From assembly GCA_037576215.1 (NCBI GenBank), contig JBANDB010000006.1:4650001-4714000 (forward strand): a stretch of 64,000 nucleotides of DNA. Direction: 5' to 3'. Positions within the stretch are counted from its first letter, which is position 1, and the number at the start of each line of letters is the position of its first letter. The position numbers were made by a program, and so were the translations under genes. Below are positions 3,899 through 54,423 of this stretch, piece after piece. Source of the DNA: Armillaria gallica. Its lineage: Eukaryota > Basidiomycota > Agaricomycetes > Agaricales > Physalacriaceae. The notes under the pieces were generated by a model. The model was not told the DNA's origin. It did not search any database and worked only from the letters and a program-made list of their open reading frames with translations.

Positions 3899-5769
3899 GT
3901 GGTTAGTGCCCCACTGGCGAGAGTATGTGATTCAACAGTATGGCTATACAACTCCTTCGCGAGACAACAAGGTATGTAGCTGTAAAATCCCATAGAAATG
4001 CACTGAATAACAGTATCATTGAGAAAGATAGACTATTTAAATCTCTCCGACATTACCATTATCGCTCCCATTGAAGACAGCTTGTCGATCGAAGATATCA
4101 AAGTTCCAAATCAACGAGCCTATACAGGTCCAAAGCCTGTCATACCATCCTCTCTCACTGACACCTCCAGTGCCAGCCTCAGCGTTGACGGACTGATGAA
4201 GACGTTAAACAGCACTCTTGGCACCGAATATGACCTCACCCCTTCTCTGTCATCCCTTCTCAAGTTGTACATCTCGAAGGAATATGACTTTGGCACCGTA
4301 TATGGCTATCTCCGCCCCATGTGGTTTGACTGTGACCTGAACATCATCCAAGATTCACTGCGCACCTCTGAAGCGATGGACAAAAAAATACGACAAGAAG
4401 CGCTGGTTGATGGCCAGATCACCTATGAGGGACTGTTCATGGCCCCTAGGCGTGTCTGGGATCTCTTCAGCAATAGGGTGGTGCCATGGTGGGTTGCCTT
4501 GCATACACCATGGGGAATATCACATGCCTGGCTAGATAACAGCCATCGCAAAAATGTGCTCACTCCCATCAATGGACATGAATGGCCGGTGCCCATTCCA
4601 AAAGATGTCAATCTCGATCTCGTCCATATTGAAATGCTGAATCTCAGAGCAGAGTATGCATGGTTGGACGTCCTCTGTTTGAGGCAGGAAGGGGGTCGAG
4701 ATGAGCATCTGCGTGGGGGGGAGTGGATGTTGGATGTGCCCAATATCGGAAATGCATATGTCTTAGAAAAGGTGGTTTGCTACTTCAATGGGCTTGGACG
4801 GCCCTTGGAGCGTGGTTTCGATTTCGATAGTGCTCGGAGTTGGTTCAAACGCACATGGACGTTGCAGGAGACGAGTCGCAATTGGACAATAGGTGGGGAT
4901 ACAGGCGATGAGACGTTGAATGATGAAGTACGGAAAAGATTCAAGTCACAACTGGTATCCGTGAAAGAGGCCGCAATTGATGTGGCTCGCTTGCTATCAC
5001 TGTTGCAGAATTGCACATCTGAGAAGGACGTGGATAAAGTTGCAGCACTGACATACTTTTTGGCATCGAACGGCGCACCAGCACACAATGAAACATGACC
5101 CACCACATTTACCACTCACGATTACACAAAGATCGACCCCACTTCAAATGGTAATTCCATCGGAACAGGTGACCCAACCTCAACCATAGCACTGGCATAC
5201 TCTGAGCTGGAGTCTGCTGAAGATGCTTGGACAGTGCTGGTGAAGGTGATGGTGTGGTATCATCGTTCAAAGATGCTCTTTTTGTATCATGAACCTGGGC
5301 CTGAAAAGGATGCATGGAGACCATCATGGCAGCAGGCTATGAACTGGGATACCCAAAATTTGTCAATCTATTTTCCCTCCTCTCTCATGGACCCGTTTTT
5401 CACAATATAGAGACGGGTACTTATTCATATGATGGTCAGTGCATTCAATCAGCACAGGTACAAGGGTTGGCCATGTCGGGGGCAGTGCCCCACAAAGGAC
5501 ACTTGATTGTCCAAACCTGGTCCTGGTACAGAGGAAAGCATCAACATCAATACAAAATTTCCGCTGACCATCAATACCCAATACCGGATGGCGAATATTT
5601 ATTGCTATGTGCTCCGCACCGAGATTTAAGATCAAAAGGGACTGTATGTGTTGTCAGGAAAATGCTGCCCGATCAAACATTTCTAAAGATATCAATGTTT
5701 GAAGTCATCAACTGGCCATGGAAGCGAGCGAAGCGGGAGAGTAAAGAGTCATGTATTGTTCTTGCTTGA
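3899..5769 (+). pseudogene. HET-domain (heterokaryon incompatibility-like) gene, copy 1, disabled
   Basis: The layout is exon 1 at 3899-3971, a 42-bp intron at 3972-4013, and a long exon from 4014. The exon-1 start, ATG in the 51- and 63-kb copies, is GTG here. The body has the HET hallmarks: WGISHAWLD, AEYAWLDVLCLRQEGG, MLDVPNIGNAYV and WFKRTWTLQET. In fungi HET proteins trigger a cell-death response after non-self fusion. The frame hits TGA at 5096-5098, where the 25-kb copy has CGG. The C-terminal third continues in frame to about 5360, and a 1-bp deletion relative to copy 2 (about 5360-5395) then moves the last part to another frame, which ends at 5769. There are three separate lesions, so I call it a pseudogene, although a truncated HET protein from a downstream start cannot be excluded. 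Confidence 0.85.
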
Positions 5770-9815: not shown

Positions 9816-9953
9816 GACTGAGCCAAATTATACGTGGTAGGGAAAAGTAGCAGTGGGCACAAAGAGAGATAGTGGATAGAGTAACACCCAGACTGTGAAA
9901 CGGAAGGAACAGAGTGGAAAGAAATTTTGCGCATAGTTGAAGTAGGTTGCAAA

Positions 9954-10070
9954 TAGACTTGAACCAATCCCTTTGAAACTCGATGACAGTTGATCAAAGT
10001 GTGACCAAAGGGACTGGGACAGAATCCACCTGCCTAATAGAGTCAAAATATTTCCCATGCCCTTTTGAAC
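9954..10070 (+). repeat. Left terminal inverted repeat of the 8.2-kb transposon
   Basis: It matches the reverse complement of 18063-18181, including CCTAATAGAGTCAAAATATT near the inner end. It also contains a local inverted pair: CCAATCCCTTT near the tip and CAAAGGGACTGG about 45 bp further in. These could be paired protein-binding sites. Confidence 0.8.
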
Positions 10071-10242
10071 TTCAATGCGATTCTCATTCTGACTCCTCTA
10101 ATTCATCTCTCGTATTCACGATTTAATAACATAGAAATACAGGTATGATGAATATAACAGGCTCACTGTTGTCCGATTTTCATTATCTTTTCTCTAGCTC
10201 TTTTAATTCTCTATTTAATCAATTTTATGCCCATATTACAAG

Positions 10243-13200
10243 ATGTTCAAGCCCAAGCGCCCAAGGGATGAAGAGGTGGATTTTGAGGCCTCTAGTCCAT
10301 CAATACCAGTGCAAACGACTCGTCAAATGCGTCGCAAGGTGTTCCAGCCACCACCGACGTACACCTTTGGCTCATCTCCTGTCCCAGGAGCAAGCTCTTA
10401 GCCACATACCGCTTTTTCGCCTTCCCTGCCAGTGACGCCGATTCATTTACATACTAGCCATTTCATTCCATCATCAGCACACTCTCCGAGCATGTTTATC
10501 CCCAGCACTGCACCCTATGATGTGACAATGATGGCTTTCAATCCATCCTCAAGTCCTTCTCCTCAATCTGTCTATGACACATCCACACCTACTCTACACA
10601 CACAAGCACCTACCCTAGTCGACGAAAATCCCTTCATAGACTCTCCTATGCCATGCGCAAGTCCTGTCCTCTCCAATCTCTCCACGGAGATCAATTCTTC
10701 GTGCACCTCTCTCAAGATGTCAGCACCTGTACAGTCGCATTCAGTTTTAACTGCGAGCAGGTCCATGAGCTCTATTTTGGAGAAACGTCATGGTGTTAAG
10801 GCTGCCAAGGATAGAGAACGTGCAGCGCAGCAGGCACTAGGCAAAGAGAGGAAGTGTTTAGAGGTGGAATCCTGACAAGCAAGAGCACGACAGCAAAGTG
10901 CAGCCGATGTCTTGGAGTTCAGGCGTATTGTTCAACTGGCATGTACTCCGAAGGACCAGGGGGGCTCAGGCTACCAAAATCTCGGTCACTTCTTTGACAC
11001 CATGATGAAATGCGATGAGGCAGCAAACAAGCAGTTCTCAGCGAACCTTACGTGTTATATCTGTGACCATGGCAAGAAGCTTACTAACTGGATGTGGACG
11101 CGTGTCTCTGAGCAGCATGAAGATATCCTGAGTGAGGAGATTGTCAGCATGCTTTTGTGTGAAGGCAAGGCCATTCAAACCTTATTAATGCAAGGTTCAG
11201 TGACTATTGCTGCAGACCTATTGAATTCGTTCTCCATGGATCAGCTTGCCAATGATCTGCAGTATGTTGCCCCCAAACTGTGGAGTCTTCTGGGTGCTAT
11301 GACCACAGGTGACACATTGACTTCCAGGAACCGAAACAAATCACTGGTGAGTTGCTATTCCCTTTCTGTTAGGTGTGAGTTGTCTTCATGAAGTTACAGG
11401 TGCTGACTTGTATCATGGCTATGATCAGCATTTTGTGGTCACAGAAAGCGAACAACTTCCAGGTGACCATTGGGCTTTTTCTTCTCGCATCCAGTGCATC
11501 GAAGCAAGAGATTGCCATCATGGCACATGCTGGCCTGTCGCTTTCATATCCGTCTATCCTCAGTCATCTTAAGCTTATGTCAGTGACAAAGACGAGACAA
11601 TATGTGCAGATTGTGAAGGAGTGGATGTGTGCACTTGTTTGGGACAATCTAAATATCCCATTTACTGTGGGCGAACAGTGTATGGATTCAAAGAATCATT
11701 TTGACAATGGCACAATGGCGACACTTGTGGTTCTTTATGGAGGATCAGCTGCATGTGAATGCCTCCCTCATGGGTATCTCCCTCTTTCCATGAAGCCTCA
11801 ACGGACTACCACATGTCCTGTATTTGACTGGAGCTCAGAGGATGTCTTGCCTGACGTAGAGACTGCTTGTCAGCTCACACAGAGCTGTCTATGGCAGATC
11901 AAGCAACTTGTGTTAGAGCACATCCCTGGTCTGGAACATCTGCGCTCTGATTTAGAAGAGTGCCCCAAGGTTTGAGTCATACCCCCCCATAAAACCGAGC
12001 AGTACTCTCTCCCTGCAATGCACAAGGATGAATCATCCATTGATGGCACTATTGATGTCCATGATACCCTTTACAACCACCTAGAAATGACCAATGAAGC
12101 TCTTGAGAAGCATGGACTCATGCCAGACCACAGTGATCTTCTCACAGATTCATTAAAGGACAACGTAAGTTATCTAGATATCATTATCCTATCTATATGC
12201 TGAAATAGCTGCAAAGGTCGAGTCTGCTCAACGTAATAGTACCACTCCGATTGCTGGATGAAGGGCGTCCAAGCGTGTGTGGGGGATTTTTCATGCCAAG
12301 ATGGCGGGCGGTCGCTTGGTAACAAATGAGCATTGGGGAAAGCCAAACTCGGCATGGCCGGGTGGTTTATGGTGGGAGCACTCGAAACTTTTGGGCTGCA
12401 AGCCTATGACTGCCAGATGGAAAGGGAAAAAAGCAATGCCATGGCGACCAGCCCATGAGCTAATACACATTTCTCTTCCCGCTCATATATTGGATGTATT
12501 TTGACTTCATTGCAGCCATTGCGATTTCCCTGTCTGGGCAGCTGCTGCAACATTGGATGAGGTTCACCATGTTGCTTTGGAGGTATAGAAGCATCTCTTT
12601 TCATCATTTAGAGTTGAAGAGCTCTGTGACATGGACGAAGAAGACTGTGACATCACATTTGAGAATGCGATCCTTTACAATCGGGATGCATTGCTGTATG
12701 TTGAATTTGTACATGCAATCAAATTTGGAGATATTGGATGGGCAGTGAACGTGATGAATATGTGGCTGGTGATGATGCGTGGGGTGTCTGTGATGCCTAA
12801 GTATGCAGATGCGATCTTCGAGATGTTGCATGATCTGAAAACCTGTGATCCTGTTCTACGGTATGTGATCTTGGCCTTCCACCTGACATTCATATGAATG
12901 ACCCATTCTTGTAGTGATGTTATACTAGACAATTGGCTTGTCAATCTCACAGGTCATGTTGATGGCTTCAAAGAAGTCGACCTTCTCCAGAAGCATCAAA
13001 ATTTCTGGGCGAAGATCATCTACAATGCCAAGGGTAGCAACAAATCATGGAAATGGCTATCCATGGTCACTGTGTGCATCTGGACACTACGTGATGCAAT
13101 GCGTATAGTGCACAAGACCTTTCAGATTCTGGCTTATGGCACCAAGCATACGAGCCCTGTGATAAAGGATGAGATTGCAGTCATCGCCCAAGCACTTGAT

Positions 13201-13548
13201 AAGGAATGTATTCAAACATATGTGAAGAACCGCCCAGGCTCTGATGCCGAGGATGGTGTAGCACCTGTTTATGAACTTGTCGCCCATGGTGTCCAGTATT
13301 TCAACTCTCGAAGGGCCTATCTGAAATTCACCCCTGAACGATGTCGGGCTCACAATATTGGATGAGCTGAGTCACCTGATCAATCAGAAGATGAGGACGA
13401 GACAGAGGATGGGGAACTCTTAGATGCTGATCAAGAACCTGATATCACACCAGACGATTTAGAGCTGGACGATGACAAGCATCATGATATGGTAGATAAT
13501 ATTCTCAGCTCCACACGTTCTTTAGCAGATGACATCATAGATAGCTAA
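10243..13548 (+). pseudogene. DUF6589-domain gene, full length but with seven in-frame stops
   Basis: Four exons join in frame: 10243-11346, 11400-12164, 12217-12860 and 12915-13548 (3147 bp, 1048 codons plus stop). Introns are 52-54 bp. The first ~220 residues are Ser/Pro-rich and low complexity. Then come blocks recalled from DUF6589 proteins: SQKANNFQVTIGLFL, ALVWDNLNIPF, HFDNGTMATLVVLYGG, WGIFHAKMAGG, DVILDNWLVNLTG, VDLLQKHQNFW and SNKSWKWLSMV, with an Asp/Glu-rich tail. In-frame stops lie at 10399 (TAG), 10873, 11973, 12259 and 12502 (TGA), 12586 (TAG) and 13363 (TGA). Each fits C-to-T change of CAG/CAA or CGA. No frameshift was found. DUF6589 has no assigned function that I can state. 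Its WDN, HFDN and FH motifs would suit a nuclease-like fold, but that is speculation. Confidence 0.8.
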
Positions 13549-13553
13549 CTGTT

Positions 13554-13877
13554 TTATTCATCAACAACTATACTAGGTTCTGGCAAATCTTTGGCCCCAG
13601 GCAGCTCAGAATCGCAAGCCACTGCATGAAGGTAACCTTTCACCTCGCCCTCTAAGTAGTTTGCTGAGTCAACGATTGTTGAACCAGGTTCATTAAAAGT
13701 CTGAGCATTCTCAAACAAGAGATGCCAGTCATCGTAATACTCCCGCAGTGTCTTGTAATGTGTCTTCTTCTTTGTGTTTGATTGAATGTTCAGTATAGAT
13801 ATCGGATGAGCAATATGTTCATAATACTCAGGCCACGTTGTCACACCCGCAGCATGTCTAAGGGTGTAATTTTGCAA
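13554..13877 (-). CDS. Small bromodomain protein
   Basis: An uninterrupted 107-residue frame begins at the ATG at 13877. It carries the bromodomain core in order: WPEYYEHIAHPISI, a tyrosine-rich linker, YYDDWHLLFENAQTFNEPGS, then SANYLEGEVKGYL. The FxNAxxxN segment includes the Asn that contacts acetyl-lysine in known bromodomains (NAQTFN). The spacing resembles SNF2/RSC-type bromodomains. A further 5' exon is possible, because the family usually has one more N-terminal helix; an AG at 13895-13900 could be its acceptor. Its 3' end lies 5 bp from the 3' end of the DUF6589 gene, in convergent orientation. Binding acetylated histones is known for the family; a role in target-site choice of the element is my inference. 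Confidence 0.7.
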   Translation of the reverse strand: MQNYTLRHAAGVTTWPEYYEHIAHPISILNIQSNTKKKTHYKTLREYYDDWHLLFENAQTFNEPGSTIVDSANYLEGEVKGYLHAVACDSELPGAKDLPEPSIVVDE

Positions 13878-15567
13878 AATGTCATACCTTACACTTTAGC
13901 AATGCAGAGGCATCGCGAGCGGGCTGACAGTGCAAGTGGCACGCGAAGAAGCAAGGTCACCGAGGTAGAAAGCTCTATAACAGAAGAAGAAGCAACAGGA
14001 TTAAAACATAAGGACTTCGTCATTGCACTGTACCTTATGGGCATGCACGGCAACAAGGCCGAAGGGCAAGCTAGATTGCCAAACCACCTGTTTGCAATAG
14101 AGGACTCAGCTGGAGTGGGATGTGCTTGTACGCGGGCCAAGGCTAATTTAGATAACAACGTGTCTGTAATCTATGACGCGTGGTCCCTGGAGATCCAGAA
14201 AAACGATATCACGTGCGGGGTAATCAAGAGAACCCCGGGCATGGCCTAGAAACAGGCTTCGGCCGATGGAAGTAGCGAGCGGACTGGAAAGCCGAGGCAT
14301 TTCTTGGTTACCGAGTCTAGAACATGGCGCTGTCACCTTCGGAGCAGACCCGAAAGCCGAATACGAAGTGTGATCGGTGATCGAGGATTAAGCAGCTATT
14401 GAGTGCATGTGTGTGAGCTACTCTGCTGCTAGGGCAAGCGACATAGACATCGCTTAGCCCTTTGAGGATACTAAAAAGAGGAAAAAGTGGCCCGCTGCCT
14501 AGAGCGCTGGGCTAACTCGGATAAGAGATACCCAGCCGAAAAAGAAGTAAATTACTAAAAAGCCATTTGTAACAATCAATCTTCCGTAGTATAAGTAGAG
14601 TAGATTTTCACGTAGTAAAGGCAAGATACCTACCCCCCACATACAGTAATAAAGTTTCAGTTTGGATCTGGACTTGTTGGGGCACGTAAGAGTTAGTAGC
14701 TTTGAGTCTCGGCTAGAACGCAAGTTTAGCGAGCTCACAGAGAAATAGAACAAGAGAAACATTTTGGATAAAAACTTCGGTTTACTTGAGATAAGAAAGA
14801 GATTCGGGGCAGTGACACTGTGCCCATCTTGAGAGTTTATGGAGATAAATCTGAGAGAAAAACTGTTCCTTTTCTGGTTCAGTGTAAAAAGAGAATTTGT
14901 GTTGTGTCGGCCTCTGTGTAGGTCTAGGAGTAGTTGCAAGGGAATCAGCCAGCTTGAGCTGTTCTAGCAGTTGCACAAAGTGTGACAGGTGTGCGCAGTT
15001 GGACCTCACGGCACCGTTGTTAGGGCGAGCGCACTGTGTGTGAGGACTTGCGGGGACGGTTCTGAAAGTAATTAAGACTTGAGTGGGAGTGCCGAGGGCC
15101 TCCATCGTGACAAGTTTGGAAGTCAGGTTTAGCCACTAAGAGAGAGGCGGCATCGCACGTAGATTAGATCTAGCGGCGAGTCGTACTTAGTGAGCTCACT
15201 GACCGAACTTGGTCAACTTGCGGATCTGCGTATCCATGTGTTCCAGCTATTGAAATATATTTTGCCTCAAGGGTTGCATGGTTCACCATGCTCTCTTGTA
15301 AAAAGCTCCGAAGAGCTAGAGAATTTGAGACTAGCTTGAAAATACTACGTTGTTGCGCATATCGTTCTAGCGAGCTCACTGAGAGAAATTGGGATACTGT
15401 CAGCACGCAAGTGGAATTAAAATCCTTGCTCCCCTCTGCACTTAAGGAGATTGTGTGTGTGTGTGTTTAGTGGGGTTGAGTTGGGTTTGGTGTGTGTCCA
15501 TGCTAGGCTGTGCTCAGTTTCACAGGTGCCCGTCACCAGCCTCGTCAATGTCTAAGGAAGTAACTTG
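13878..15567. other. Unexplained 1.7-kb stretch inside the transposon
   Basis: It lies between the bromodomain ORF and the RecQ-like gene. Several frames of 60-150 codons are open on both strands (for example plus 13782-14249), but none has a motif I recognise. GCGAGCTCACTGA-type sequence occurs at about 15190 and 15370. A short (GT)n run lies at 15452-15467. It may be a nested insertion or the degraded 5' part of the bromodomain gene. Confidence 0.35.
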
Positions 15568-17888
15568 TTAGTATGACGTTGAACCAAGCACTGACAGTGG
15601 CATCCATACCGTCTTTCTTGGAAGCTTAAGAAATGGATGTGAGTGTTTGTATTCATGCCCACTCTTGTCAGTTGCAGTTGCAGTAGTGACCACATAGTGG
15701 CAGCCTTGGAATATGGCAAGCATTTTTTTGTAGACCTCTCCCATGGTGGCTTGAGCTGTGGCACAATCCTTCCATTCCTGTTCCATCCGTTCTCTCGCTC
15801 CCTGAATACTGATGACTGGGAATCTTGAAAGTGCTTCCTGGATCACACTCAGGACCCTTGCTCCATACCTGTCCCGGTGAACCCAATAGGTGTAGTCCCT
15901 GATTGAGTCCACTGATTCCAACATTGGTGCCCGCTGCGCTAGAATATGAATGACATTGTGCAGCAGAATTGCCCGTCCTGTAATCAAAACTTGACCAGCA
16001 AGGTCATTCCTGGATATCTCTTGCTGAAGGCCATATAGAGCTTCAGAGACTGTGTCGTAAACTTCCTCCGCAACTGTTACAGTCCAGCCAGTCTTCAGCG
16101 GGCGCTCACCCTCTAAGACAACAGTATCAATTGGAAACTCTTCCGGATTGCAGTTGTCACAGCATTGCATTGGCCATCCAGATAGTTCTGTAGGCGGTGT
16201 CAGTGATCCTGAGGCTGGAGTGAGCATCAGTGAAGACAGAATGATCAGGAAACCCACGTTTTGTGCCATTGTCAAAGAACTCATTCCAAACTATACGATG
16301 ACACCTCTCAGTGACAATGAATTGGAGAAGAAATTGATGATCACAAGCAGCCATAGGTGACAACGTCTTCTGTGGCTTTCGCTTTCTCTGAGAGGTCACC
16401 ACATTTGGGGTCATGTCTTCTTTGCAGTCCATAACTTCATCCAGCAACCGTGCATGATCCTCTTCCTGGTCATCGTCCATGTCTAGGTCTTCGGGTGGGA
16501 GGTCACCATTACTACTCTGGTGATCAGCATCTGAATCAGAATTATCCTCTGGTTCCGCATTGTCATCGGGCACATAATGCTTGTTGTAAAAGGCCTCAGT
16601 TTCATACACAATCGCCTCTCCGACAAGGCCTCAGCACTGTCCAATCTTCTGCGCAAGCGAGCACATTGTCCGAGGTGTGTGCCAAAGGATTACACGTGTT
16701 ACAAGAGAGTAGTGCACACCCTGTGAGGAGATAAAATGAATAAGTACAGCTTTTCAATCGGCATCATAGTAAAATAACATGCCATGCCAAGAGCATCGGT
16801 TGCAATAACAATACGAAGCATTCCATTAGATAGGCATTCATGTATTTGGTCTTTCTCATCTTGATGTACGTGTCGGTGATAGAACTCGACGAAATCAGGA
16901 GGAAAATCTGGGCAGTTATTGCGAAAGAATTCCTCAATCAGTTCTGCTGTCATTTGGCCATTGACATAGACTATAGTTTGTTCTATGTCATTGGGAGAGG
17001 TAGCGTCAGACGGAATGAGTGCCATCAAGTCTGCAAATGAATCCTCGGGATGCTGAAGGAGACACACGGATAGTGCAATATTCGGCTTCTCATTTGACAG
17101 AGATATCCGTCAGCATGTATCTGTTAAGCCTACAGTTGTTTGTATGTCAGTAATCACATCACATGGTAATGTGGCAGATGCAAGGAGTACAGGAACACCT
17201 CCAGGTAGGCGTTCACATAATAGTCCTGGTGCAATGGAATAGTCATGTCGAAAGTTGTCAGTCCCCCATTCGCTGATGGAATGGCCTTCGTCAATCACCA
17301 AGCCAATGATGTTCTTTTGGAAAGTCTCTGATCTAAGAACGAGAGAGTGGAATTTGGTTCTCGATGCCATTTCTGGACCAACAAAGGCAACTTGATATTT
17401 TCCAGCACCAAAGTCCTATGTGATTCTTAATTACTGAAGTTTAGGCTGTAGACGAAGCTGAATATTACCTCCATGAGCTGAAGTACATTCTGTGCCTCAG
17501 AGTGAATGGCTACTGCCGATACTCCATGTCCATTGAGGTCCTGAACCTAATAGGAGAACAGAATAAGGCCAAGCAGATGTTGTTGTGAGGAAACACTTAC
17601 CTGAGACTTCATCAGACCTACAAGCGGGCTAAGGACAAGGAGAAGCTTATCAAAGTCACCCTTCTCATTAGAACCTGTCCAGCAATGGTAGAACAAAGCA
17701 TAGTAGAAAGCTAGAGTCTTGCCGGCACCAGTGGGTGCATCTAGAATGGTATCTATACCAAGTAGCATGTTGTGACCAGCTTCAGCCTGATAATCTCAGA
17801 CTTCTGGGAGGTTGAAGACCTCACAGAGGAGTTCTTCCATTTCTTCGATCCTCTGAGGGTCGAGCGCAGTGAGAGGAAGGAACGACAT
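15568..17888 (-). pseudogene. RecQ-like DNA helicase of the transposon, disabled
   Basis: The start ATG is at 17888. Helicase motifs appear in order on the minus strand. APTGAGKT (Walker A, about 17700-17730) is followed by LLVLSPLVGLMKSQ (Ia). VIDEGHSISEWG (DEAH-type box, about 17260-17300) and LLASATLP (III) come next. TIVYVNGQ (IV), FYHRHVHQ and RIVIATDALGMG (V) complete the core. Then follow TPRTMCSLAQKIGQC, an acidic insert and CCDNCNP, which resembles the RecQ zinc-binding C-terminus. RecQ proteins unwind DNA 3' to 5' using ATP. In-frame TGA stops lie at 17796-17798, 17110-17112 and just upstream of 16609, each fitting CGA to TGA. One frameshift lies near 16200. The intron after GLGM-type motif V appears to start with GC instead of GT. 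Confidence 0.8.
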
Positions 17889-18062
17889 TGTATATTTAGC
17901 TTAGGAGACACATTTGCATAGGTCATTACGACGGAATGGGATTATATAAGCGAAATCGGAAAACAGTGAGGCTCTTATTTTTGCCATAGGAGACTGTATA
18001 GCAAGAAAAACTGGGAATCTGGAGGAGGAACCTGACGTGCAAGCAAGGTGCAAATGGTTAAG

Positions 18063-18181
18063 TCGAGAAGGGCGTGGGAAATATTTTGACTCTATTAGGA
18101 AGCTGGATTCTGTACCAGTCCCTTCCGTATGGTACACTTGATCGACTGTCATCAGTGTCGGGAGGGACTGGTTCGAGTCTA
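18063..18181 (-). repeat. Right terminal inverted repeat of the 8.2-kb transposon
   Basis: Read on the minus strand it starts TAGACTCGAACCAGTCCCT. It contains AAGGGACTGGTACAG about 55 bp in, so CCAGTCCCT and AGGGACTGG form an internal inverted pair. Its mate is at 9954-10070. Confidence 0.8.
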
Positions 18182-18190
18182 GGTTGCAAA

Positions 18191-23868: not shown

Positions 23869-25755
23869 ACGGTTAGCGCTCCACTGGCGACGGGCTTTGA
23901 TTCAAGATGATGGCTATACAAATCCTTCGCGCAGAGACAACAAGGTATGTAGCTGTAAAATCCCATAGAAATGTACTGAATAACAGTATCATTGAGAAAG
24001 ACAGACTATTCAAATCTCTCCGACGTCACCATCATCGCTCCCATTGAAGACGGCTTGTCGATCGAAAATATCAAAGTCCCAAATCAACGAGCCTATACAG
24101 GTTCAAAGCCCGTCATACCATCCTCTCTCGCTGACACCCCCAGCGCCAGCCTCGGCGTTGATGGACTGATGACGACGTTGAACAGTACTCTTGGCACCGA
24201 ATACGACCTTACCCCTTCTCTTTCATCCCTTCTCGAAGTGTACATCTCGAATAAATATGATTTTGGCACCATATATGGTTATCTCCGCCCCATATGGTTT
24301 GACTGCGACTTGAAGGACGTCGAGGATTCACTGCGCACCTCTGAAGCGATGGACCTCAGAATACGACAAGAAGCGGTGGTTGATGGCCAGATCACCTCCA
24401 AGGGACTGTTCATGGCCCCTAGGCGCGTCTGGGATCTCTTCAGCAATAGGATGGTGCCTTGGTGGGTTGCCTTGCATACACCATGGGGAATATCACATGC
24501 CTGGCTGGATATCAGCCGTCGCAAAAATGTGCTCACTCCCATCAATGGATATGAATGGCCCGTGCCCATTCCAAAAGACATCAATCTTGATCTCATTCGT
24601 ATTGAAATGCTGAATCTCGGAGCAGAGTATGCATGGCTGGATGTCCTCTGTCTGAGGCAGGAAGGGGGGCAAAATGAGGAGCTGCGTGCGGAGGAGTGGA
24701 TGTTGGATGTGCCCAATATCGGAAATGCATATGTCTTAGAAAAGGTGGTTTGCTACTTCAATGGGCTTGGACGGCCCTTGGAGCGTGGTTTCGATTTCGA
24801 TAGTGCTCGGAGTTGGTTCAAACGTACATGGACGTTGCAGGAGACGAGTGACAATTGGACGATAGGCGGGGATACGGGCGACGAGATGTTGAATGATGAA
24901 GTACGGAAAAGATTCAAGTCACAACTGGTATTTATGGAAGCGGCCGGTTTTTCTTCCTTGCTCGAAGTGACCAGCTGGCTATCGCTGTTGCAGAATCGCA
25001 CATCCGAGAAGGACGTGGATAAAGTTGCAGCACTGACATACTTTTTGGCGTTGAACGGCACACAAGCACACAATGAAACACGGCCCACTACATCTACCAC
25101 TCACGATTTTACAAAGATCGACCCCATTTCAAACGATAATTCCATCGGAACAGGTGATCCAGCCTTGACCACAGCACCGGCATACTCTGAGTTGGAGTCT
25201 GCTGAAGATGCTTGGACAGCTCTAGTGAAGGTGATGTGGCGGTATCATCGTTCAGAGATACTCTTTTTGTATCATGAACCTGGGCCTGAAAAGAATATAT
25301 GGAGACCATCATGGCAGCAGGCTATGAACTGGGATATGCAAAGTATCTCATATGTTTCCTACTCATTTCCTCTCGGGCATGTTGATCACGATATGAAGAT
25401 GGGTGCCTATTCATACACTGGTCGGTGCATTCAATCGGCACAGGTGCAAGGGTTGGCCACCCCGGGGGCAGCACCCCGCAAAGGTCACTTGATTGTCCAA
25501 ACCCAGTCTTGGTACAGAGGAAAGCATCAATATCGATACAAAATTTATGCTCGCCATCAATACCCAATACCGGATGGCGAATATTCATTGCTATGTGCCC
25601 CGAGCCAACGCTTCAGATCAAAGGGGACTGTATGCGTTGTTGGGAAAATGCTGCCCGATCAAACATTTCTAAAGACATCGGTGTTCGAAGTCATCGACCG
25701 GCCATGGAAGCGAGTGAAGTGGCAGAGTAAAAGGTCGCGTATTGTTCTTGGTTGA
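23869..25755 (+). pseudogene. HET-domain gene, copy 2 (long intact body, broken first exon)
   Basis: Exon 2 (23987-25755) is open for 588 codons. HET motifs lie at about residues 150-290 of the body: WGISHAWLD, AEYAWLDVLCLRQEGG, MLDVPNIGNAYV and WFKRTWTLQET. A C-terminal region of unknown fold follows (MLPDQTFLKTSVFEVIDRPW near the end). Exon 1 (23869-23944) has ACG where copies 3 and 4 have ATG, and an in-frame TGA just before TGGCTATAC. The 42-bp intron 23945-23986 is conserved. The first in-frame ATG in exon 2 is about 59 codons in (GLMTTLNST), still upstream of the HET domain. A shortened but HET-complete protein is therefore conceivable, making this the copy most likely to retain function. 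Confidence 0.85.
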
Positions 25756-28089: not shown

Positions 28090-28800
28090 TGTATGGGACT
28101 TCTTGCCGAGTCTAGTAGGACGGTTGGGCGGCTGCCAGGTGAGATAGTCCCATCAATGCTCAGACGCGCTTGGATACAGCACAAACGAGCGCGTACCGAG
28201 CCATCACTCGTCCAAGCCCATTCCAGCGCACTGTGCCGCCATATGGCCTCGCATGGGAGCGATCTTTTCCCGCATCAAGGCGAGGAGGGACGTCCTTCCG
28301 TTGGTAGCGTGCATGATGTGTTTGGCGCGAATAAAGATAAGGAGTGTGCGTGTACAGCCGGAATGAAGAGCACATCTTGAGCAGCCTTGACAGGATCCCC
28401 ATAACGAGCCTATATGGATGCACCGCGCTGCCCGTCATCGAGATGACCCCGCACACCTCGTCTGCAGCTGCATTCCCGCCGGTCCCTCCGTCGTACCCCA
28501 GCCACCCTTCTCGCTCGGCAGTTCCTCCAAGTGGCGCCCCAGCTTCTCCTTGGTCCCATTTAACGACATGATAATCCCCTTCGCCGCCTCCGCACCAGGT
28601 TTCTTCTTCAAATCTAGATATGTAGTCATGGTATGGCGGTGGCGTGATACGTCCCCCGTTCCGCGTTGTAGCTCCAGAGGACGCATCTATTGCTTCCAAC
28701 GTCACAACCGCCAAAGATCTATCCGCATCCAGCAGTGTACGTGCAAACACTCGTTATCCCAGACCCAACGATGACAATGTCGGCGCATGTAAAGATTCAG
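28090..28800 (-). pseudogene. DAO-like oxidoreductase, copy 4 (inverted, collinear)
   Basis: An open stretch of 196 codons (28750-28160) covers VFARTLLDADRSLAVVTLEA, a GATTRNGGRITPPPYHDY block (typical Gly/Asn/His-rich FAD-contact region), GWLGYDGGTGGNAAADEVCG, HPYRLVMGILSRLLK and RYALVCAVSKRV. The nucleotide-binding GSGIT lies just upstream (about 28770) in another frame. It is collinear throughout, unlike the block I equivalent at 9148-9815. Frame slippage at about 28325 and 28760 makes it non-functional. Confidence 0.7.
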
Positions 28801-28929
28801 GTGATTTCGACTGGGCCAATCTTTACGCGGTAGGGAAAGCTAGTCGTGTGCACAAAGAGAGAGATAGTGGACAGTGTAACACCCAGACTGTGAAACGGAA
28901 GGAACAGAGTGGGAAGAATTTTTGCGCAC

Positions 28930-30640
28930 GGTTGAAGTAGGTTGCAAAGCGGAGGAGGCGACAATTTGAAACTCCGAGTTACCTTGCTCTCCTGTTGCGA
29001 ACAGCGTTATTTATTCAACACGTCCATATCATCGCGTCTTCTCGTCGTCATGGTCGAGCCTTTCCTACTCTCTGTGCTCTACGAACAGACACACTCTCAA
29101 TAGATTCGCACTCGATTAAGCCGTTTCGTGGTTTTTGATTGATAATCCATGTCTAACTTGATGACTACTTATCTGAGTTCCTTATACTCGAATACACCCC
29201 GTCGTTGAAGTTTTTCTTCCTTCCCCAGTCGGTCAAAGCGGAACCAGTCGTTTACAGAAAAACGGGTACGCCAGAAGCACCGATAACGGTCATAACCAAT
29301 GGGCCTCAAATTTTACAACCCTGTCACCCGAGTTGGTTTTGAAGCTTCTGACGTGCATACGTTGCAATGCTGGGATCCATTTGTTTCATGGATGATGGAA
29401 CGAGGTAGGCGACATCCTCTTCTTAAAGGCTATTTAACACTATCCCTTGTTAAACAGACTGGCGCCAGTGGTCAAGTTGATTCCAAGACCAATTCCAATG
29501 TGAATAGCGCTCTGTATTCGACGTTTGCTGCTATGGGAATCTTCGCTAGGTGAATATATTTTATTTTATTTTACGTTTGGCGCATTGACCCTCAGATCGG
29601 TCAACAACATACTCAGACCAAAACTCACGCTCCTGATTGACAGTATATAATACACCTTGTACATCGGATCCTCTGTGGTTATCACCCTCTTATTCCTAGT
29701 TAATCGACACTGATATGATTCCTAGAGCCTTGAACATTCATTCCAAAGCCGACTTCGTCGTCAGTCATCTTTCAGATGTGCGCTGGTTTCTCATAGGCCA
29801 CACAGGGCTCGTTGATGACGGTGTACCCTACTGCAACGCGAAACAGGAAATTTATTGTCTAATTCGCACCTCGGCAGTGTTGTCGAGGCGTCTGTTACTG
29901 CTGGGAGAAACCGGAAATCAGCAGTAAGTGCCCGAGCTTTCGTAACACACGACTGCATGTCCATTCGTGTTTACAGGCCAACGTTGTTGATGATGGGACA
30001 TACGTACGTTGGTATTTTCAACCATCCTACTTTTCGCTTAAACCGTTTTCAGGTTGGATTCCTCGTCCTTACTTCTCATTCCGATGCTAATGGCGAATCC
30101 CGACAAGATGATACGTTCGGATGGAACAAAAGTTACGACCCCCCGACAACCCCTCTGAAAGACCGAAATTATAAGTCTCTTCGTGACGCTGAAGTCTGAT
30201 CCAACAATCGACGCTTCAACTCCGTCCAGAATTCAGGGGCTTCAACGGTATCATCTTCAACATCCGTGTCCAGGCTCGAACAACGTCTGCTACTGGATCT
30301 CCCAAATCATCGGGTCTATCCTCATTGGTCTCCTCCTCGAATGAAAATCTATCAGTTGTCGTATCCGCGCCTACGTGATGCCTCCTGATACTTCACATAG
30401 GTACATGAATATGTTCATTTCGGAATGGGCCCTCCTTGTCGGAGGTCTCGTGTTTGCATATCAAGAATCATAATGATCTAAACGACGAGACCATGTCAGT
30501 TCATCTATCTCGTTAACTTTGATGTTTTCTCATGGCCTTACTTCTAGCGTGCGGATGGATGATAAAGGACAGATATGTCCAACTGAAACTGTCAGACTCA
30601 CTGCTGAGATGAAGCTACCCAGGCGTCTTCATGATTTTCA
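28930..30640 (+). pseudogene. UNC93-like MFS transporter remnant, copy II
   Basis: It starts at about 29299 (MGLKFYNPVTRVGFEA). It carries GQVDSKTNSNVNSALYSTFA (about 29475-29530) and AGRNRKSAVSARA, with a short exon near 30215-30350. Most of the middle, including the MDIYNHGYAG region of copy I, has been deleted around 30360-30380. The end joins homology to the 3' flank shared with copy III. It is more eroded than copies I and III. Confidence 0.55.
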
Positions 30641-51508: not shown

Positions 51509-54423
51509 ATGGCTAGCGCTCCACAGGCGACAGAATCAGATTCGATGGGAGGGCTATGCAAATCCTTCGCGCAGAGACAACAAGGTGTGTAGCTGTAAAA
51601 TGCCATAGAAATGCACTGGATAACAGTATCATTGAGAAAGACAAACTATTCAAACCTCTCCGACGTCACCATCATCGCTCCCATTGAAGACGGCTTATCG
51701 ATCGAAGATATCAAAGTCCCAAATCAACGAGCCTATACGGGTTCAAAGCCTGTCATACCATCCTCTCTCGCTGACACCCCCAGCGCCAGCCTCGGCGTCA
51801 ATGGGCTGATGGAGATACTGAACAGCACTCTTGGCACTAAATATGACCTCACCCCTTCTCTGTCGTCCCTTCTCGAAGCGTACATCTCGAAAGAATATGA
51901 CTTTGGCATCGTATATGGTTATCTCCGCCCCATATGGTTTGACTGCGACTTGAACGATATGGAAGATTCACTACGCTCCTCTGAAGCGAAGGAGCTAGAA
52001 ATACGAAAAAAAAGCGGTGGTTGATGGCCAGATCACCTGGAAGGGACTGCGCATGGCCCCTAGGCGCGTCTGGGATCTTTTCAGCAATAGGGTGGTGCCG
52101 TGGTGGGTTGCCTTGCATACGCCATGGGGAATATCACATGCCTGGCTGGATATCAGCCGTCGCAAAAAGGTGGACACTTCCATTAATGGACATCAATGGC
52201 CCGTGCCCATCCCCGAAGACACCAACCTCGATCTCATCCGTATCGAAATGCTGAATCTCGGAGCTGAGTATGCATGGTTGGATGTCCTCTGTTTGAGGCA
52301 GGAAGCTGAAGGGGTGCGAAACGAGGCTCTGCGTGCAGGGGAGTGGATGTTGGATGTGCCCACTATTGGAAATGCATATGCAGTGGGAACAGTGGTTTGC
52401 TACTTCAACGGGCTTGGACGGTGCTTGAAGCGCGGGAGTGAAGATTGGAATTTCGAAGAGTGCCATTTCGATAGCGATCGGAGTTGGTTCAAACGCGCGT
52501 GGACGCTACAGGAAACGAGTGACGATTGGACAATAGGTGGGGATATGGGTAACGAGATGTTGAATGAGGAAGTACGGGAAAGATTCATGTCGCAAGTGGT
52601 ATCTGTGGAAGAAATGACCAGTCAGGTGAGCGCCATCGCATCTGCGTGGCATTACCGAGTCCTATGTTCATGCCAAACATGATGAAATATTGAAGGGTTG
52701 CAGGTGAATATCAGGAGATGTTAAGGACAGGGACCGTGTAGTAGGGATGCAAAGTACACTTCGAACAACGAATCACAAGTATGGAGGTCGACCAATGGGC
52801 GTGATAGGGGTAAGAGTATTGATGAGGTGACGCTCACAGCGGCGATCACTCTGGAGTGATACATAGATCTACCTCCGGTCGTAAAGTTACTTCCCTAGAG
52901 AGCACACTTGCAGGCCAATCGCAGGAGCGAGCGAGATAAACTGAGATTTCTTAGTGAAACCGTTATCACGACTGACGCCTCTGGCAGGTCAGCCCAGGAA
53001 ATGAAAGCCTGCGCAATTTCAAAGCGATGAATCTGTCGAGTCGTCGAACCAATACGTTAGACCTCGCGCTAGAGCCATGTATGAAATCAATGTCCCATTC
53101 AATCAAGACGAACGTAAGACATCTACCCACTGGCAGATGGCATACTGTACGAGATAACGTGGTTTCTATTGAGGAAAGCCACAGGAAAGCACCGTTAAAA
53201 TCCATGGAACACGAACATTAGCTTGGAATTTTGGGATGAAGAGTAAGAACAAGGAGAACAGTGTCATAAAGATAGCAGTGCCCTGCCCGAGTTCTAGCTA
53301 GACGAGAAACAGGGAGATGATGAATGATTTGTGAATGATTTGAACCAATCAGTAGAAAGGAAATGAGCCAGGACTGATAAATGAAGGAGAGGGGTGTTCC
53401 AGAAAGAAAAGAAAGGCATTCAAGAGCGCTGAGAAGCAACCAGGGCAGTAAGGGTGAATACGAGAGGAAAGGAAGAGAAGAAGCAGAGTTGGAAAAATCA
53501 AGCGTCGAATATATGTTTTCCCACGATAAGCTCGGCAAGTAATTCGGCAATCAGCAAGAGATAAGATAGGTCGAATAGAATTTTCCCACGGGTCGTTCAG
53601 GACAGCATTATAACCGAGTAATCCTATATACATAGGACTCGGAACAGATGTGGTTCGCCATCTATTGCTATTGCGGGATCGCACATCCGAGAAGGATGTC
53701 AATAAAGTTGCAGCACTGGCATACTTTTTGGCAGCCAGCAGCACACCAGCACATAATGAAACACGGCCCTCTACATCTACCACTCATGATGGCACAAAGA
53801 TCGACCCCACTTCAAACGATAATTCCATCGGAACAGATGAACCAACCTCAACCACAGCACCTGCATACTCTGAGCTGGAGTCTGCTGAAGATGCTTGGAC
53901 AGCTCTGGTGAAGGTGATGTCAGAGTATAATCGTCCAGAGATGCTCTTTTTGTATCATGAACCGGGGCCCGAAAAGAATGTATGGAGACCATCTTGGCAG
54001 CAGGCTATGAACTGGACTACAATGGATTCCGGCTATGAATTATATTGGGAGGTTGAACACAATATGGAGACAGGTACCTATTCATACAGTGGTTGGCACA
54101 CTGAATCGGTACAGGTACAAGGGTTGGCAACACCAGGAGCAGCACCTCGCAAAGGACACCTGATTGCCCAAGCCCTGAACGGAGAGGAGCATCGATACAT
54201 CATTTCCGCTGGCCATCAATACCCAATACCGGACGGTGTATATGCATTGCTATGCTATGAACGGTATGGATCAAATGACCCTACTCCATGCGTTGTTGGG
54301 AAGATGTTGCTCAATCAAACATTCATAAAGACATCGGTGTTCGAAGTCATTGGCTTGTCGTGGTGTGAAACAAACTGGGAGAGCCTTCTGGGTGCTAAAA
54401 AGTCACATATTGTTCTTGGTTGA
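51509..54423 (+). pseudogene. HET-domain gene, copy 3, frameshifted and carrying a 1-kb insert
   Basis: Exon 1 (51509-51584) keeps ATG and an open phase-1 frame, and the intron 51585-51626 is 42 bp. The body is in frame until an A8 run at about 52005-52012. One extra base there relative to copies 1 and 2 shifts the frame. The HET motifs continue in the new frame (WGISHAWLD, AEYAWLDVLCLRQEAEG, MLDVPTIGNAYA, WFKRAWTLQET). At about 52627 the similarity stops and resumes at about 53650 with RTSEKDVNKVAAL, then an intact C-terminal frame to 54423. The homopolymer shift could be a sequencing error. The insert is harder to explain away. Confidence 0.8.
52627..53646. other. ~1.0-kb insertion in HET copy 3
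   Basis: Absent from HET copies 1 and 2 at the same place. It begins CAGGTGAGC, a good donor, and ends AACAG, a possible acceptor. Splicing it out does not restore the reading frame, because the downstream exon needs a different phase. No terminal inverted repeat or target duplication was found. Its short frames lack motifs. Confidence 0.6.

Follow-up and report, generated by a model that had tools for sequence, protein, structure and literature searches.

Kolobok DNA transposons have the target-site duplication (TSD) TTAA, chromoviruses carry chromodomains, and AcademH elements were reportedly described by Kojima in 2020. According to passages of the published accounts, AcademH elements combine TSDs of 9-10 bp with a helicase (PMC10045372) and occur at low copy number in fungi, Basidiomycota among them (PMC10799480); fungal Academ copies bear DEAD helicase and recQ_fam domains and were annotated as host genes (PMC6416283), AcademX has a TSD of 3-4 bp (PMC10045372), KolobokH encodes a RecQ helicase and is found only in fungi (PMC9587614), and chromodomains are mentioned for Mavericks (PMC10799480). 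Here we describe a DNA transposon in a 64,000-nucleotide stretch of the Armillaria gallica genome (contig JBANDB010000006.1, positions 4,650,001 to 4,714,000; hereafter the window), which holds a DUF6589 gene and a gene for a RecQ-like helicase with a bromodomain (Table 1). We assign a probability of roughly 0.8 to the reading that it is an inactive AcademH-type cut-and-paste transposon, in which DUF6589 would be the DDE transposase and a bromodomain captured from the host would tether the helicase to acetylated chromatin.

The 9-bp TSD, GGTTGCAAA, is identical on both sides of the element (9/9), and both terminal inverted repeats (TIRs), each about 120 bp long, begin with TAGACTyGAACC. The TIR arms are 82% identical over 133 aligned columns (E = 1.5e-26), and an additional inverted match pairs 10144-10186 with 17946-17988. 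The empty site is real, because the flanks, joined minus one TSD, align straight over the junction to window positions 28333-29623, unbroken over 1,343 columns at 80.5% identity. Window positions 9954-18181 are a DNA transposon bounded by TIRs and a TSD; the ends, TIRs, 9-bp duplication and paralogous empty site given in the original prediction are borne out by the perfect TSD, the TIR alignment and the continuous flank alignment. The native element measures about 6.5 kb and does not include the repeat at 13839-15547, which is missing from a second long element on contig C19.

Genome searches covered an assembly of 86.0 Mb in 28 contigs, to which the C-numbers refer. The left end gave nine matches as query, including both ends of the C19 element, in which about 260 bp of helicase-gene sequence are absent and which is 81-85% identical to the window element over the aligning parts. 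A third, more distant long element on C16 was located via its proteins. Both hold the DUF6589 and helicase genes between the same kind of ends, and the proposed co-occurrence of RecQ and bromodomain between the same TIRs is seen in both of the other long copies found. Isolated transposon ends are found at C6:5337709 and C2:1994455. Copies of the TIRs without these genes, which had been counted in advance as evidence against the predicted cargo, exist as well; those read on both sides are palindromes of 106-108 bp. These palindromic mini-elements consist of two ends back to back, at L011:1191-1296 (106 bp) and L012:4598-4705 (108 bp), and their 9-bp duplications are imperfect (8/9 and 7/9, respectively).

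DUF6589 is very likely the transposase of the element, with a modeled RNase-H-like DDE fold and a predicted catalytic function, because its AlphaFold model matches DDE recombinases (best matches Hermes, P element, ISCth4 and RAG1) and a D-D-E triad is conserved in the family. The predicted catalytic residues are D332, D497 and E747 in the numbering of P0012, an annotated, stop-free Armillaria borealis protein that is the closest named one and matches the C16 copy at 94%. In the model, an insertion precedes the last Glu of an RNase-H-like core; the likeness is one of fold, based on a predicted structure, and does not imply family membership. The earlier suggestion that DUF6589 may be a recombinase or nuclease gains support from this modeled fold and the conserved triad. 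Two points temper the assignment: the Foldseek E values of the matches exceed 0.001, and mostly helical models can attain high Z scores by chance in structure comparison. Furthermore, a 75-row DUF6589 profile searched against the PDB gave no match to hAT, P, IS256 or RAG transposases (the sole match, troponin at E = 0.38, was taken as chance), and Foldseek comparison of the model with a viral library returned nothing useful. In the window, DUF6589 (PF20231) passes its Pfam cut-off, with matches on three exons (E = 1.9e-13, 2.3e-23 and 5.8e-26). Protein searches with one exon and with an N-terminal open reading frame (ORF) retrieved 10 proteins and 1 protein, respectively, and a third search at least 151 at E ≤ 0.001; PF20231 is present in all 120 proteins listed from the latter.

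To judge from its coding frames, the window copy is dead: stop codons interrupt it, the predicted catalytic Glu has been replaced and the helicase gene is disrupted. Alignment to P0012 places six in-frame stops outside the introns of its DUF6589 gene and a Lys in the position of E747, and the helicase-bromodomain gene is interrupted by the nested repeat. Stop codons also appear in the C19 and C16 copies in the same alignment, and all three long TAGACT copies seem inactive.

DUF6589 and a RecQ-like helicase form a recurrent pair. Among 18 DUF6589 loci in the genome (38 matches merged by hand; two fragments, one below the family cut-off), at least 11 lie within 5 kb of a RecQ-like match, whereas 20,000 random trials gave 0.07 on average and never more than 4. 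The pair counts are lower bounds, because 36 of 76 RecQ candidates were scored; with these, no RecQ-like match was found within 5 kb of the other seven loci, two of which are fragments. The recurrent pairing supports the helicase as the partner of DUF6589, as originally proposed. The genes are convergent in seven of the 11 pairs and divergent in four, and a bromodomain is present in three. Three of the divergent pairs are near-identical copies (98% over about 4 kb; C15:1991226, C5:3660096 and C17:1588408), by sequence a younger lineage. Their ends were sought and not found, the similarity reaching the limits of the stretches compared except for one break in the C17 copy.

In the window, the two genes are arranged tail to tail, with stop codons at 13546-13548 and 13554-13556 separated by 5 bp. 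The helicase part contains GAGKT, DEGH and SAT, which we take to be helicase motifs; its Pfam matches stay below the cut-offs (DEAD, 18.8 versus 26 bits; Helicase_C, 23.1 versus 23.5), and the C16 copy clears that for DEAD with 35.5 bits. The next C16 helicase segment gave 24 matches in the PDB, to RecQ-family chains, with one aminoglycoside phosphotransferase taken as chance. When scored exon by exon, none of the genome's matches to the RecQ profile TIGR00614, whether of transposon or host origin, passed the cut-off. For the bromodomain, PF00439 scores are 47.9 bits for the window ORF, 34.3 for the spliced C19 sequence and 21.8 for the C16 exon, against a gathering cut-off of 21.7; the C16 domain has stop codons in its later part. 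The Asn of the (F/Y)N motif, which contacts acetyl-lysine in bromodomains, is invariant in a four-row alignment (N64).

Read from the frames, the bromodomain forms the C-terminal end of the RecQ-like helicase, attached via a short predicted intron, and because of this fusion the presumed trio of genes is a duo. In the C19 copy, the helicase frame runs through FLKLPRKT, crosses a predicted intron of 59 nt (GTGCAA...TACTAAC...CATTAG), whose TACTAAC resembles a branch site, and continues with AWPEYYEQ to complete the bromodomain; one in-frame stop, which the window copy does not have, lies shortly upstream. The C16 copy has a 51-nt predicted intron at the same codon. That the bromodomain might instead be a separate transposon gene or a chance neighbor is suggested by the window itself, where it is an isolated ORF 1.7 kb from the helicase and the joining is a prediction; however, the nested repeat was inserted 4 bp inside the bromodomain exon, and the first 19 or so residues of the window ORF derive from the repeat. 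We regard such independence as very improbable, and we reject a three-gene reading on account of the common frame and the intron that join helicase and bromodomain. The cargo of the original prediction (DUF6589, a bromodomain ORF and a RecQ-like helicase) is confirmed in its domains and corrected in that the bromodomain is not a gene of its own. As to the source of the fused domain, it was likely, though not certainly, captured from a host gene for an SNF2-type remodeler. The genome has 19 bromodomain matches; the three that adjoin DUF6589 are those of the three TAGACT elements, and the sole strong host match to the transposon bromodomain is at C6:3592891 (E = 2e-13), the other hits starting in the repeat-derived first residues. 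We identify C6:3592891 as an SNF2-family remodeler ATPase gene because a SnAC domain (E = 7.5e-16) is nearby. It scores 51 bits, versus at most 27 for six other host bromodomain stretches, and has LPGA behind the domain in common with the window and C16 copies (LPSA in C19). Moreover, its 53-nt predicted intron at FLQLPAKK^TYPDYY occupies the same codon and phase as those of C19 (FLKLPRKT^AWPEYY) and C16 (FLHAPSHR^HHPQYY). The common intron points to genomic DNA, as opposed to a processed copy, as the material captured, and suggests a direction from host to transposon. The exact donor is made less certain by the PDB search, in which the C19 domain matches polybromo (five domains summed) and RSC4 (1.9e-9) better than SNF2 (1.2e-6) and STH1 (5e-6). 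A different host gene as source, or an intron that is an old trait of many bromodomain genes, is in our view unlikely, yet the least improbable of the alternatives; several of the six other host stretches, by frame reading, cross that codon without an intron, whereas the intron position in the rest is ambiguous.

With regard to classification, the element is probably AcademH, since its 9-bp TSD and the recurrent pair of DUF6589 and RecQ-like helicase match published descriptions of that group, with which it was compared. The three long copies and the two mini-elements all have TSDs of 9 bp (9/9, 9/9 and 8/9; 8/9 and 7/9), an SF2/RecQ-like helicase is encoded even though the window's own Pfam matches are below cut-off, and the modeled fold and D-D-E triad of DUF6589 would provide the DDD/E transposase. 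TIRs, low copy number and occurrence in Basidiomycota are further likenesses; in contrast to AcademH, the lineage in the window has a bromodomain at the helicase C-terminus. That DUF6589 could be an undescribed DDE transposase of a new superfamily distinct from Academ, with an independently acquired RecQ helicase, might be argued from the fact that no paper in the literature searched names DUF6589; the agreement with the available accounts of AcademH in the length of the TSD, the RecQ helicase and the occurrence in fungi makes this improbable. AcademX is ruled out by the 9-bp TSDs (versus 3-4 bp). TSD length likewise argues against a KolobokH element, i.e., a Kolobok transposase with a RecQ helicase: the three long copies have 9-bp TSDs and not TTAA, and the helicase, instead of following the transposase domain, is encoded on the other strand. 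Being a fungal DNA transposon with a RecQ helicase, as portrayed for the fungi-only KolobokH in passages of PMC9587614, is what the two have in common, and we give this identity almost no credence. The modeled RNase-H-like DDE core, with its insertion ahead of the final Glu, resembles those of hAT (Hermes), P element, IS256-type (ISCth4) and RAG1/Transib transposases, which differ in ends and cargo and gave no sequence match in the PDB.

The original remark that no described element with this trio was known is not supported, since Academ elements with a helicase (AcademH) and TSDs of 9-10 bp have been published (PMC10045372 and PMC6416283, in the passages available). A DNA transposon with a bromodomain was not reported anywhere in the limited literature searched. 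Chromodomain-bearing elements are likewise mobile elements with a histone-mark reader, but there a methyl-lysine reader is placed on the integrase, and here an acetyl-lysine reader on the helicase.

Table 1 Features of the transposon, its surroundings and its long relatives
Feature	Position	Strand	Length	Remarks
Transposon	9954-18181		8,228 bp	With nested repeat; ends from TIRs and TSD
Left TSD	9945-9953			GGTTGCAAA; from sequence and empty site
Right TSD	18182-18190			GGTTGCAAA; from sequence
Left TIR	9954-10072	+	~119 bp	TAGACTTGAACC...; similarity fades out by ~10186
Right TIR	18060-18181	-
DUF6589 (PF20231) gene	10243-13548	+		Decayed; three putative introns; putative start codon
VWDNLNIPF	11637-11663	+		Region of predicted first catalytic Asp (D332 of P0012); intact
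Bromodomain exon of helicase gene	13554-13838	-		C-terminal; stop codon 13554-13556; PF00439, E = 1.4e-12
Nested LTR-like repeat	13839-15547		1,709 bp	TGTCACACCC...CGTCA; ACGT/ATGT at sides
RecQ-like helicase part of helicase-bromodomain gene	15548-17888	-		Introns included; decayed; putative start codon
Paralogous segment without insertion	28333-29623	+		Empty site near 28937-28954
Second long element	C19:1184623-1190861		6,239 bp	TSD CTTGTTTCT, 9/9
Third, more distant long element	C16:206859-213851		6,993 bp	TSD CTGACGAGC/CTGACAAGC, 8/9

The nested repeat begins with TGTCAC and terminates with CA, and may be a solo long terminal repeat (LTR) or a non-autonomous element. At least 38 further near-full-length copies, 91-94% identical, are present in the genome, together with one copy in two pieces and one fragment; this is a lower bound, with 40 of 342 candidates scored. 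The flanks of the transposon recur several times within the window, and the element therefore sits in a repeated region with HET (PF06985)-like genes; such ORFs are found at 4007-5098 (E = 5e-5), 23980-25755 (E = 2.7e-4, below cut-off) and 51999-52682 (E = 2e-6).

In the mechanism we propose, by analogy with its modeled fold, the DUF6589 protein would bind the TAGACTyGAACC ends, excise the element and join it to target DNA at 9-bp staggered cuts. The RecQ-like helicase would probably act during transposition by unwinding or remodeling the DNA ends or gapped intermediates. The bromodomain on its C-terminus, presumably taken together with its intron from the host SNF2-type gene, would most likely tether the helicase, and hence the transposition complex, to acetylated (open) chromatin; such targeting, already suggested in the original prediction, is made plausible by the conserved (F/Y)N Asn. 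More tentatively, and with more doubt than confidence, we suggest that the lineage captured a SWI/SNF-type acetyl-lysine reader as genomic DNA and fused it to the RecQ helicase, that the complex reads histone acetylation to choose or open target or donor chromatin, and that this would be the first bromodomain-guided DNA transposon.

These results suggest a function for DUF6589, which Pfam lists as a domain of unknown function and of which mushroom genomes have many copies. With DUF6589 genes very likely being transposases, many 'hypothetical proteins' would belong to mobile elements. In addition, the intron position shared with a host gene offers a traceable case of domain capture, and the use of an acetyl-lysine reader by a DNA transposon becomes a testable proposal.
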